Assembly (NCBI GenBank): GCA_027622655.1
Contig: JAQBYI010000015.1
Coordinates: forward strand, 1-64,000
Direction: 5' to 3'
Origin: Gemmatimonadota bacterium
GTDB taxonomy: Bacteria > Gemmatimonadota > Gemmatimonadetes > Gemmatimonadales > Gemmatimonadaceae
Length of the DNA stretch: 64,000 bases
Program-made: the position numbers and the translations under genes
Notes under the pieces: model-generated
The model's database searches: none
What the model was told of the DNA's origin: nothing
Seen by the model: only the letters and a program-made list of their open reading frames with translations
In this document: piece by piece, positions 4,677 to 62,283 of the stretch
How the letters are laid out: every line of letters starts with the position of its first letter
Numbering within the stretch: position 1 is the first letter of the stretch

Positions 4677-4764
4677 CGTCAGGATCGCGCTGCGGGTTGC
4701 GCACCTTGGCGGGTGCCGGGCATTTTCCTCGACAGTTCGCCTACACCGATATGGGAACCGACGA

Positions 4765-18685: not shown

Positions 18686-19710
18686 GCGCCGCTCCGTTGG
18701 CCGTCGCGAGCGCGGCGGTAGAACTCGGCCGCCTCGCTGGGCCGTCCCATTCGGTCGAGTACGATTCCCACGCCCTTGAACGCCCGCCAATTGTCGGGCT
18801 CCAGATCCGCTGCGCGGTGATACGCCTCCAGTGCCTCACCAAGGCGGTCGAGCTTGCTCAGCGACTCGCCCAGATAGAAATGCCCCTGACCCGACAGCGG
18901 ATCAGCTTTGACGACCCGGGCAAGCGGCTCGACTGCCTCGCGCCACTTCGCGCGCCGGCACGCCAGGATTCCTTGCTGCAGGAGAACGCCCGCATCGTCT
19001 GGCTTCACTTTTTGGGCGCGTTTGAGTTCGCGCTCGGCGTCGTCGTACCGCAGCCGGCCGCTGAGAATCGTGGCGCGTGCACACCGCAGGATGACGCCAT
19101 CACCGCCGGAATCGATCGCGCGTTGCAGAACACCCAGTGCGCCTTCGATGTTTCCCCGGCGCGCGAGGGCGTGTGACAGCACCAACGCTGTTTGTTCGTC
19201 GCCCGGGTGCGCGTCGTGGATGCTCTTGAGTTCATCGAGCGCAGGGAGCGGGGTCGGTGGCGTCATGGAGCGGGCGACCGGTCGCGCTGCCATCGGCGTC
19301 GGGGCGAGTGGCGTTGCCGCGGGCGCTCCTGCGGGCGCTCCTGCGGGCGCTCCTGCGGGCGCTCCTGCGGGCGCTCCTGCGGGCGCTCCTGCCGGGTCCG
19401 CGCGGCGAGTGTGTCCCGTCTGCTGCGAAGCGCGCGAATAAGAAATCCTCGACTGCGCCATCTGCGGTGTAGGGACGATGGTAGTATTGCCGCGCCCGTC
19501 GGGGAACGCATCCTCGTCGAACGACCACTCTCCACAAACCGGCGGTTCGCGTACGGCGACGTCCGTGTCCGCATTGTCGGTCGCGACGCTGTCGCGCGCA
19601 GCCTGCTGCGCGGCGGCGACGGCCGGATCGAGGCCACCGAGGGTCAGCTGGTCGGGATCCGGTACGACGAACCCCGGCACCGGCGGTGTGCGATCCCGCG
19701 GTGTCGGCAT
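18682..19710 (-). CDS. TPR protein with Pro-Ala-Gly-Ala repeat linker
   Basis: 342 residues from [10 protein letters not shown]. The first about 100 residues are acidic and low in structure. A linker of six Ala-Gly-Ala-Pro units follows, then a proline-rich stretch and, from about residue 160, four to five TPR units such as [38 protein letters not shown] and [20 protein letters not shown]. It is probably a cytoplasmic or membrane-associated scaffold. No signal peptide is seen. A longer frame to 19791 exists but would cross the candidate promoter and operator. It is the first gene of the TPR-transglutaminase-ABC-GNAT operon and is divergent from uvrA. Confidence 0.75.
19321..19392. repeat. 12-bp tandem repeat inside the TPR gene
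   Basis: Six perfect copies of GGGCGCTCCTGC. On the coding (minus) strand it gives repeated Ala-Gly-Ala-Pro, a flexible linker. The unit length is a multiple of three, so copy-number change keeps the frame. Confidence 0.97.
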
Positions 19711-53723: not shown

Positions 53724-54926
53724 ATGGCCAAGGCAAAGTTCGAGCGGACCAAGCTGCACGTAAACGTCGGCACTATCGGCCACGTCGATCACGGCAAGAC
53801 CACGCTGACGGCGGCCCTCACCAAGATCTCGGCTGACTCGGGATTCGGCACCAAGTACATCGCCTATGATCAGGTCGCGAAGGCGTCTGAGTCACAGGGT
53901 CGTCGTGATCCCACGAAGATTCTCACGATTGCCACGTCGCACGTCGAGTACGAGACGAAAGCGCGCCATTACGCGCACGTCGACTGCCCCGGCCACGCGG
54001 ATTACGTGAAGAACATGATCACGGGAGCCGCGCAGATGGATGGCGCGATCCTCGTGGTGAGCGCCGTCGACGGCCCGATGCCGCAGACGCGCGAGCACAT
54101 CCTGCTCGCCAAGCAGGTGAACGTGCCGAAGGTTGTAGTGTTTCTCAACAAGTGCGACCTCGTCGAGGACGCCGAGCTGCTCGACCTCGTAGAGCTCGAA
54201 GTTCGTGAGCTGCTGTCGAAGTACAACTTCGACGGCGACAACGCGCCCGTGATTCGCGGTTCCGCGATCAAGGCGATCGAAGGCGAGCAGGTTTGGATCG
54301 ACAAGATCCAGGAGCTGTTCGAGGCGCTTGACACTTTCATTCCGGAGCCGGTACGCGAAATCGACAAGCCGTTCATCATGCCGGTCGAGGACGTCTTCTC
54401 GATCACCGGTCGTGGTACGGTGGCTACTGGTCGTATTGAACGCGGCAAGATCAAGACCGGTGAAGAAGTGGCGCTCGTCGGTTTCAACTCCGACAAGAAG
54501 GCCGTCGTCACGGGTGTCGAAGCGTTCCGCAAGCTGCTCGACGACGGACAGGCCGGCGACAACGTCGGGCTCCTGCTGCGCGGCATCGACAAGAAGGACG
54601 TCGAGCGCGGTATGGTGCTCGCCAAGCCGGGCTCGATCACGCCGCACACCAGGGCTGAGGCCGAGGTGTACGTGCTGACCAAGGACGAGGGCGGCCGTCA
54701 CACGCCGTTCTTCAAGGGCTACCGCCCGCAGTTCTACCTCCGCACAACGGACGTGACAGGCTCGATCGAGCTGCCGGCCGGAACGGAGATGGTGATGCCG
54801 GGCGACAACGTCCAGATGGTCATCGAGCTGATCATGCCGGTCGCGATGGAGCTGCAGCTGCGGTTTGCCATCCGCGAAGGCGGACGCACGGTGGGTGCTG
54901 GCGTGGTAACGAAGATCCTCAAGTAA
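53724..54926 (+). CDS. tuf: translation elongation factor Tu
   Basis: 400 residues. [18 protein letters not shown] (residues 19-36), [21 protein letters not shown] (87-107, split for length), [12 protein letters not shown] near 142 and [13 protein letters not shown] near 233 are all normal. Switch I is not: where other EF-Tu have a short segment ending RGITINTSHVEY, this protein reads [18 protein letters not shown] at 54-71 before SHVEY. It is about five residues longer, with Lys-Ile instead of Arg-Gly, but Thr68 is retained. Only one tuf lies in this window. Confidence 0.97.
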
Positions 54927-55366: not shown

Positions 55367-56050
55367 ATGATCGGGATCATTGGACGCAAACTGGGCATGA
55401 CCCAGATATTCAACGAAGCGGGGCAGCAGATCCCTGTGACGGTGGTGGAAGCCGAGCCGAACCCGGTCACGAAGGTCGTGACCAAGGAGACGGCCGGATT
55501 TGCCGCAGTCGAGCTCGGATTTGGCACCAAGCGCCTCGCACGTGAGTCGAAGAAGGGCGAGCGCGTGCCGCGCGGTTCGCGTGCACCGAAGGCGGAAGTT
55601 GCGCACGGTACCAAGGCTGGACTCGATGCTCCGCCAGTGGTGCTGCGCTCGTTCCGTCTCGACGATGCGCCTGGGAAGAACCCGGAGATCCCGACCTATG
55701 CGGTCGGCGACAAAGTGAGCGTCGGCATCTTCAATCCGGGCGATACGGTGAAGGTGACCGGTACGAGCAAGGGTCGTGGATTCCAAGGCGTTGTGAAGCG
55801 CTACGGTTTCCACGGCGGTCCGAATACGCACGGCAACACGAAGCACCGCCGTCCGGGTTCAATCGGCGCCGGAACAGACCCGTCGCGAGTTATCAAGGGC
55901 AAGAAAATGCCGGGGCACTACGGCGCCGCGCGGCACACGCAGACGCACCTCCGTGTCGAGAAAGTGGACGCGGAGCGCAACCTCATCTACATCCGCGGCT
56001 CAGTGGCCGGTCCGAAGTTCGGGATCGTGCTCGTCCGCAAGCAGGGATAA
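55367..56050 (+). CDS. rplC: 50S ribosomal protein L3
   Basis: 227 residues. [19 protein letters not shown] begins the protein and the signature [19 protein letters not shown] lies near residue 127. L3 initiates 50S assembly and reaches the peptidyl transferase centre. It starts three bases after the rpsJ stop. Confidence 0.98.
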
Positions 56051-56053
56051 CCG

Positions 56054-57007
56054 ATGGCCGACTCGACAAACCTCCAGGCCATGGCATTCACGGCGCAGGG
56101 TACGCCGCGCGACAGCGTGGCGCTTCCGGGCGAGATTTTCGACGGCACCGTGAACATGCCGGTCATGCACCTCGCGGTGAAGGCGTATCTGGCCAATCAG
56201 CGTCAGGGCACGCACGCCACAAAAACCCGAAGTTACGTGGTTGGCGGCGGCGCGAAGCCGTGGGCCCAGAAGGGCACCGGCCGAGCGCGTCAGGGTTCGA
56301 CGCGTGCGCCGCACTGGCCGGGTGGCGGAACGGTTTTCGGACCGAGCCCACGCAGCTACCGCCAAACCATCACACGTCAGGCCAAAGCGTTGGCGCGCAA
56401 GAGTGCGCTGAACGCTCGCGCCGGCGAGGGCGCGCTCCACGTCATCGACGCGTTCCAATACGACGCACCGAAGACATCGAAGCTGTTGCAGTTGCTGGCG
56501 CGCCTCGACGTTGCGCACTTGAAGGTGCTCATCCTGACCGACGGCGTGAAGGCGGACCTGTATCTTTCGGGCCGAAACCTGAAGAACGTGCACGTGCTGC
56601 CGTTTTCCGACGCGTCCGCGTTCCAGGTACTCTGGTCCGACGTGGTGCTGGTTGAGTCGGCGGCCTTGGGCTCCGCGCTCGAGCCGATGGCTGAAAAGGA
56701 AGCGCCGAAGGTGAAGGTTCTGAAGAAGAAGAAGCCAGAGAGAAGCCGGAAGGCAACGGACGCCGACGAGGAGCCGAAAGCGACGGCGGCGAAGAAGTCC
56801 GCCGCGAAGGCCACCGCGAAGAAGGCGGCGGCCAAGAAGACGGCAGCGAGGAAGGCGTCAGCGAAAGCGGCTCCGAAAGCGGCTCCGAAAGCGGCTGCCA
56901 AGAAGTCGACGCCGAACAAGCCAGCGGCCAAGGGAACGGCCAAGGGAACGGCCAAGGGAACGGCGAAGGTGACGGCCAAGAAGCCGGCCAAGAAGAAGGA
57001 GAAGTAG
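56054..57007 (+). CDS. rplD: 50S ribosomal protein L4 with long Lys/Ala-rich tail
   Basis: 317 residues, whereas L4 is usually about 205. The core has the tunnel loop motif GGGAKPWAQKGTGRARQGS near residue 64 and ends near 205-210. The last about 105 residues are a histone H1-like tail of Lys, Ala and Pro (for example KKAAAKKTAARKASAK). They include an acidic patch DADEEPK and short DNA repeats. The tail is intact and in frame and ends just before rplW, so it is not an artefact of a missing stop. It may bind rRNA. Confidence 0.95.
   Translation: MADSTNLQAMAFTAQGTPRDSVALPGEIFDGTVNMPVMHLAVKAYLANQRQGTHATKTRSYVVGGGAKPWAQKGTGRARQGSTRAPHWPGGGTVFGPSPRSYRQTITRQAKALARKSALNARAGEGALHVIDAFQYDAPKTSKLLQLLARLDVAHLKVLILTDGVKADLYLSGRNLKNVHVLPFSDASAFQVLWSDVVLVESAALGSALEPMAEKEAPKVKVLKKKKPERSRKATDADEEPKATAAKKSAAKATAKKAAAKKTAARKASAKAAPKAAPKAAAKKSTPNKPAAKGTAKGTAKGTAKVTAKKPAKKKEK
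56926..56961. repeat. 12-bp tandem repeat inside rplD
   Basis: Three perfect copies of GGCCAAGGGAAC, encoding Ala-Lys-Gly-Thr units. A second array nearby, GCGGCTCCGAAA at 56867-56890, has two perfect copies (Ala-Ala-Pro-Lys). Confidence 0.95.
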
Positions 57008-58201: not shown

Positions 58202-58573
58202 ATGGCACGTAGCGTAAAAAAAGGCCCATTCGTCCAGGACAGTCTGCGCAAGCGCGTGGACGGGATGAACGCGCGCAGCGAAAAGAAGGTCATGAAGACA
58301 TGGTCGCGGGCGAGCACTGTGCTCCCCGATTTCGTTGGGCACACATTCGCCGTTCACAACGGGAACAAGTTCATCCCGGTCTACGTGACCGAGAACATGG
58401 TCGGTCACAAACTCGGTGAGTTCGCGCCGACCAGAACGTTCCGTGGCCACACGGCGGCGCGCGCAGCGGAGAGCAGGTCTGCGGCTCCTGCCCCTGCGGC
58501 CGCTCCTGGCGCAGCGGCCAAGCCGGCCGCAGCTGCCGCTCCGGCCAAGCCGGCGGCGAAGGGAGGCAGATAG
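58202..58573 (+). CDS. rpsS: 30S ribosomal protein S19 with Ala/Pro-rich tail
   Basis: 123 residues, about 30 longer than usual. The core is standard: [36 protein letters not shown], and [16 protein letters not shown]. From about residue 90 a tail of Ala, Pro and Lys ([20 protein letters not shown]) replaces the normal short end. A 69-bp gap, larger than its neighbours, separates it from rplB; I see no element in it. Confidence 0.96.
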
Positions 58574-61521: not shown

Positions 61522-62283
61522 ATGGCCAAACAGAAGCAGCACGACAAGACAACCGACAAGAAGCCTGACAAGAAGGCGGAGAAGAAAGCGGAGAAGAAGC
61601 CCGCGCCGCCCAGGCAGGAGAAGAAGCCGAAGGCCGGCAAGGAAAAGAAGACGGCTGATGCTCCGCGTGAACACGCTGGCGTCGGGCTGCCGGTTCCTGA
61701 GGCACGCCTTCGTGTGCACTACCGGAAGGTGGTACGTCCAGCGCTTTCCAAGCAGTTCAATCTTGGAAACCCTCATGAGATCCCGACGCTCGAGAAGATC
61801 GTGCTGAACGTCGGCTTGTCCGAGGCGATCAAGCAGCCAAAGCTGCTCGACTCGGTGGTGGAAGAGCTCGGCATCATTACCGGACAGCGTCCGGTCCGAA
61901 AGAAGGCGAAGCAGTCAATCGCCAACTTCGGCCTTCGACAGGGTCAGGAGATCGGCGTGGCGGTGACGCTGCGTGGCGCGCGGATGTGGGAGTTTCTCGA
62001 CCGATTCATTTCAGTGACTGTGCCGCGAATTCGCGATTTTCGGGGGCTGTCGACCCGTTCGTTCGACGGTCGCGGCAACTACAGCATCGGCGTCAAGGAA
62101 CAGATGATCTTCCCGGAGATCAACTACGATCAAGTAGAACAGATCCACGGTATGGACATCACGTTCGTGACGTCCGCGCCGAAGGATGATCAGGCGCTCG
62201 CGTTGCTACGCGAACTCGGCATGCCGTTTCGCGGTGATGACAAACCGATTGTGGTGCAGGACTTCGAGCCGCAGCAGGCGTAG
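61522..62283 (+). CDS. rplE: 50S ribosomal protein L5 with Lys-rich N-terminal extension
   Basis: 253 residues, whereas L5 is usually about 180. Residues 1-57 are nearly all Lys, Glu, Ala, Asp and Pro (for example [18 protein letters not shown]). The normal core begins near [17 protein letters not shown]. Core motifs are [18 protein letters not shown] and [19 protein letters not shown]. The ATG at 61522 is the only good start with a GAG-type site before it, and no in-frame ATG lies just before the core. The 80-bp gap before it is free of genes. Confidence 0.95.

Follow-up and report, generated by a model that had tools for sequence, protein, structure and literature searches.

Disordered extensions of ribosomal protein L4 have already been described in bacteria. 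According to the report on the Cutibacterium acnes ribosome (PDB 8crx; PMC10085706), its uL4 (L4 of 301 aa) has a C-terminal extension of about 100 aa that is solvent exposed, makes the protein 100 aa longer than its E. coli counterpart, lacks density and is likely disordered, and uL22 is extended too, by 43 aa. The L4 encoded in the window, by which we mean the whole stretch of 64,000 nucleotides analyzed here, resembles it in its length beyond the core, in the C-terminal position of the extra residues and, by structure prediction, in their disorder. The two are likened by length and disorder, and since C. acnes belongs to a different phylum, its extension presumably had an independent origin.

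Basic tails with the composition of histone H1 are known as well. The ribosomal tails of mosquitoes, as presented by works that PMC11764897 cites, are Lys-rich, of low complexity and H1-resembling by convergence, as is the L4 tail, and arose on more than one ribosomal protein; they differ from it in being eukaryotic and in being carried by other ribosomal proteins. The H1-like KPAA domain of AlgP of Pseudomonas aeruginosa shares with the L4 tail its bacterial Lys/Ala/Pro repeats, predicted disorder and variation in repeat number, but AlgP is a non-ribosomal protein associated with DNA and polyphosphate granules (PMC9239181). A curated, lineage-specific C-terminal extension of L4 itself exists in NCBIfam, the 50S L4 sunset domain variant (NF051449), which belongs to a set of sunset domain models for L4, L17, L20 and S2 that gives a precedent for portable add-ons; it differs in being a short domain with a motif, carried on an acidic linker. 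Membership in this variant was rejected for the window L4, which at 200 bits fell short of the 385-bit cut-off, compared with 392 for a true member (L158).

Our literature search, in which subscription journals were poorly covered, returned no order-wide polylysine tail on bacterial L4 and no L4 tail of Gemmatimonadota. Both kinds of feature, disordered extensions of uL4 in bacteria and ribosomal tails that resemble H1, are thus in print already, and an order-wide polylysine tail on L4, of which we found no description, seems to be undescribed. The core of L4 is one of life's most conserved proteins, and most of one bacterial order, which we take to be Gemmatimonadales, adds to it a selected polylysine arm. 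The function of disordered basic ribosomal tails has so far been studied mainly in eukaryotes; some lineages of the order go without the arm, such that tailed and tailless relatives constitute a natural experiment on such tails.

The L4 gene and its C-terminal tail

The S10 ribosomal operon lies in the window, which comes from a genome (G000) of 3.1 Mb in 115 contigs. Its rplD, encoding ribosomal protein L4 (uL4) of 317 aa, occupies positions 56054-57007 of the forward strand, with an ATG start and a TAG stop at 57005-57007; L3 ends at 56050 and L23 starts 3 bases past the L4 stop. This position between L3 and L23, together with profile scores above the cut-offs, identifies the protein as a bacterial uL4: Pfam PF00573 matched residues 22-205 (E 2e-57; 194 bits against a cut-off of 25.8), NCBIfam rplD_bact matched residues 23-206 (E 1e-63), and TIGR03953 scored 214 bits (cut-off 130). 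From the point where the profile matches stop (residues 205-206) and from the pLDDT values, the L4 core was taken as residues 1-206 (56054-56671, forward strand). In an AlphaFold2 model run with 26 sequences, the pLDDT of the core is mostly 88-97 once the tunnel loop and the first ten amino acids are set aside, the final helix ends at residue 214, and the chain beyond it is coil with a pLDDT of about 50; the tail is predicted to be unstructured.

The sequence-only reading had proposed that a complete L4 core is followed by a tail of about 105 residues at 56684-57004. The core is indeed complete, and these coordinates are correct, as they translate into 107 residues (33 K, 32 A, 9 P, 3 R and 8 D/E); alignment to relatives places the start slightly earlier, at residue 207, which gives a Lys/Ala-rich C-terminal tail of 111 aa and net charge +27 at 56672-57004 of the forward strand. 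With 31 K, the tail ranks first for lysine among the 35,691 overlapping 100-aa segments in the six frames of the 64 kb (mean 2.7), and the N-terminal extension of L5 comes second, with 20 K. The description of the tail as histone H1-like is apt for its composition and predicted coil but goes no further, as Pfam had no match for the tail by itself (E up to 1) and, for the whole protein, Ribosomal_L4 only. Homology to linker histone H1 was rejected, as these searches gave neither a globular winged-helix domain nor an H1-type profile match for the tail or the whole protein. Queried by itself against the PDB (E up to 1), the tail had no matching chain, and a search of its own genome at E up to 0.01 gave no twin besides the L4 tail itself.

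Both perfect 12-bp arrays that had been noticed within the tail were found again: GCGGCTCCGAAA occurs twice at 56867-56890 and GGCCAAGGGAAC three times at 56926-56961, every copy being exact. As delimited by TRF on the forward strand, the first spans 56862-56896 (2.9 copies, 100%; peptide unit APKA) and the second 56925-56980 (4.7 copies, 90%; peptide unit AKGT). They look like ordinary repeat growth within a low-complexity tail, and a function of their own is not required. The window has two more perfect 12-bp arrays, at 1-70 and 19319-19392 (5.8 and 6.2 copies), which sit in open frames with SAAQ and APAG repeats.

Searched as a short DNA pattern, AKKxAxK occurs at 13 places in the genome, 3 of them within L4. 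Three further low-complexity proteins of this genome were observed: one near position 5136 of contig G000:C69 (L348), Lys-rich, acidic at its front and with a long tail of the KAKKPxAKKAAK type; a tiny Lys-rich one near 4683 of G000:C45 (L346), MAAKKKAKKKAKAKKKK; and one with a Lys-rich N-terminus near 53756 of G000:C40 (L345), which resembles deoxyhypusine synthase.

Distribution, gain and loss of the tail

We scored a tail as present when it had at least 30 aa and a net charge of at least +7. L4 ends were read in 193 genomes of the phylum, Gemmatimonadota, a selected set that combines every L4-bearing genome of the genus with the top-scoring members of the family and with short-framed genomes chosen deliberately, such that the fractions given here are not prevalences. 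The L4 of G175 and G311, whose frames are interrupted by a contig end, were left out, and that of G300 (38 aa, +5), below the threshold, was scored as tailless.

In the genus of the window, L4 was matched in 16 of 18 genomes; completeness is 82% and 61% in the two without a match. Every one of the 16 readable L4 bears the tail, with 69-111 aa and +17 to +27. Absence of the tail from all close relatives had been named as an argument against it, and the comparison of tail lengths among relatives gave the opposite result. Across the order, 96 of the 142 readable genomes examined carry a tail (42-134 aa; median 78 aa and +19): besides the genus itself, these are 39 of 46 in family f1 with this genus and g22 set apart, 36 of 64 in family f2 and all 5 readable ones in family f3. 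The tail is found in 0 of 11 genomes of genus g22, which we take to be Gemmatimonas, known for its polyphosphate stores.

None of the 49 readable genomes from eight other families of the phylum has a basic L4 tail; their L4 mostly ends short and net-acidic or neutral, often in ...DA, and long acidic ends occur in some genomes of f5. G311, of another family, has 113 aa at +16 up to the contig end and could be an exception. In three f5 genomes, G290 (L054), G222 (L140) and G351 (L148), L4 has a different C-terminal stretch, LPKvgdLadFLarFd...RdgRKTAq.yYeARL, which looks like a small folded domain; Pfam gave no convincing match for any of the three, and NCBIfam no match for the one tested.

Outside the phylum, a comparable tail was seen in 0 of 79 loci. 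Within a sample of 148 Actinomycetota genomes, 147 of them with L4, we read 40, namely 38 of the 39 with frames of at least 280 aa and 2 of the 9 with frames of 250-279 aa; the 39th long frame, G420 (L184), was read among the 79 loci of other phyla. The long L4 ends of these 40 are acidic or near-neutral, bar one doubtful case: that of G515 passes the threshold (132 aa, +7) but is arginine-rich and apparently frame-slipped, and is no clear case.

On a FastTree phylogeny of 16 ribosomal-protein cores rooted with f11, the order forms a single clade with a support of 100, within which the state of the tail changes at least 6 times. As the tail is present in f1, f2 and f3, its history is most simply read as a single basal gain in the order, probably followed by about four losses. 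The main ones would be in a 23-genome clade of f2, in an 18-genome clade of f1 (G020, G033, G032, G047, G059, G101, G085 and g22), in G218 and in G394/G361; having been lost in about four lineages, the tail appears to be dispensable. Certain tails of f2 (e.g., G365, G183 and G282) finish in ...DA as in tailless relatives, which suggests that the basic part grew ahead of the old L4 end.

Selection on the tail and its possible functions

Selection was assayed on five disjoint gap-free pairs, pooled. The tail gave a dN of 0.117, a dS of 0.327 and a dN/dS of 0.36 (synonymous versus nonsynonymous, p 2e-9), against a dN/dS of 0.13 for the core in the same five pairs pooled; dN of the tail exceeds the core value about fourfold. 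The pairs vary widely, with a pN/pS of 0.26/0.37 for G084/G121 alone and a dN/dS of 0.85, on few changes, for G064/G126. In the tails of the five pairs, lysine was retained at 216 of 235 positions and other residues at 424 of 529. A lysine codon becomes an arginine codon by one base change, and K/(K+R) is 0.86 in the 96 tails versus 0.40 in the same L4 cores, such that more than generic charge is kept; the terminus KKKGK occurs in 33 of the 96. Because dN/dS is 0.36 and lysine is favored over arginine, the tail is translated and selected: it is a coding feature under purifying selection at the protein level, in which lysine in particular seems to be favored. A dN/dS below 1 is a sign of constraint, and a particular function is not thereby identified.

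The reading that we prefer, although tentatively, is that the L4 tail binds RNA electrostatically, as a flexible arm on the solvent face of the 50S subunit, and perhaps aids assembly. From C. acnes uL4, the nearest parallel with a solved structure, the tail likely lies on the solvent side of the ribosome, and it would be located on the 50S solvent face, the site of the uL4 globular domain. A flexible basic arm placed there would bind RNA by charge, without sequence specificity, and its target would most likely be 23S rRNA, either its own, early in 50S assembly, or nearby surface helices. If charge and flexibility mattered and the exact sequence less so, the length of the tail could vary through growth of the 12-bp repeats, and the tail could also be lost. 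The computed evidence is compatible with rRNA and other polyanions alike as the partner.

The main rival, possible but clearly less probable than an RNA-binding arm, is that the tail is a tolerated decoration, in which slippage in a high-GC genome lengthens runs of Lys/Ala/Pro codons at an exposed end and selection merely preserves a soluble, harmless end. The 12-bp arrays, the wide range of lengths across the 96 tails, the several losses and the restriction of extensions to some protein ends of the operon (L4, L5, S19, L22 and L29) would fit such growth, but it accounts poorly for a dN/dS of 0.36 with preferential retention of lysine, for the enrichment of K over R and for the acidic or near-neutral character of the long L4 ends of other bacteria.

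We consider it unlikely that the tail tethers ribosomes to a polyanion outside the 50S, be it the nucleoid, polysome mRNA or membrane lipids. Its composition is like that of AlgP, a protein with KPAA-repeat peptides that bind DNA and with a C-terminus that positions polyphosphate granules (PMC9239181), but Pfam searches of L4 and of the tail found no DNA-binding domain. Slightly less probable again is a polyphosphate sensor, in which the lysines would bind polyphosphate under stress and alter ribosome assembly or turnover. Polyphosphate binding can be specific for lysine, which is why this rival is considered, and the tails prefer lysine to arginine; according to PMC12345225, other targets lost their polyphosphate gel shift when lysines were changed to arginines, and the E. 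coli polyphosphate targets of one screen were all tied to ribosome biogenesis and translation. Against this stands the lack of an L4 tail in genus g22. A feature at the DNA or RNA level instead of a protein, such as an antisense gene or a regulatory repeat, is very improbable, since the long antisense frames that overlap the tail are to be expected opposite AAG/GCN/CCN codons, an Rfam search had no match at the tail, and nonsynonymous changes are held down in comparison with synonymous ones.

Basic tails on other proteins of the operon

Other proteins of the operon are extended in the window, all on the forward strand. L5 has an N-terminal Lys-rich extension of about 60 aa and +9 (61522-61701), which is present with 31-74 aa in all readable f1 operons, and S19 has a C-terminal Ala/Pro-rich extension of 37 aa and +5 (58460-58570), which measures 22-41 aa in the 13 operons of the genus that were read, with a KGGK end in most. 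The ends of L22 (58577-58960; 10 aa past the core) and L29 (60119-60352; 15 aa, +2) are short here, and each of these proteins is tailed in some relatives without an L4 tail. C-terminal extensions were absent from L3, L23, L2, S3, L14, L24 and S10 in the operons read.

The 23-genome f2 clade, in which all L4 are tailless, has basic C-terminal tails of 39-59 aa on L22 in 20 of 20 readable genomes; in the L4-tailless 18-genome clade of f1, L29 bears a basic tail in 6 of 16 readable genomes and lacks it in 10. Counted by species, a tail on L22 or L29 is present in 26 of 41 L4-tailless versus 13 of 84 L4-tailed genomes (Fisher p 1e-7; L22 in 9 of the tailed genomes and L29 in 5). However, this association was unsupported by tree-aware tests: the tree offered only 5 supported independent contrasts (median p 1 in a sign test), and for charge the independent contrasts gave r 0.03 (p 0.83; 121 genomes). 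Compensation between the L4 and L22/L29 tails was rejected as unsupported. No replacement tail is seen at two of the four losses, that of G218 and that of G394/G361 (with G346 reduced). Exchange between ribosomal proteins is for these reasons only a lead.

L4, L22 and L29 sit on the tunnel side of the 50S. A basic tail might be a portable ribosome function, a lysine brush on the 50S solvent side mounted on L4, L22 or L29 according to lineage, which we regard as doubtful. The L22 and L29 tails of L4-tailless clades make tail exchange among ribosomal proteins a testable prediction.

The L22 frame of G254 (L317) continues for 315 aa, with an apparent frameshift just within the basic tail, either an assembly error or real, and it was therefore counted as unknown. 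In G260 (L300), basic tails are present on both L4 (60 aa, +19) and L22 (82 aa, +32), the latter being the strongest L22 tail seen.
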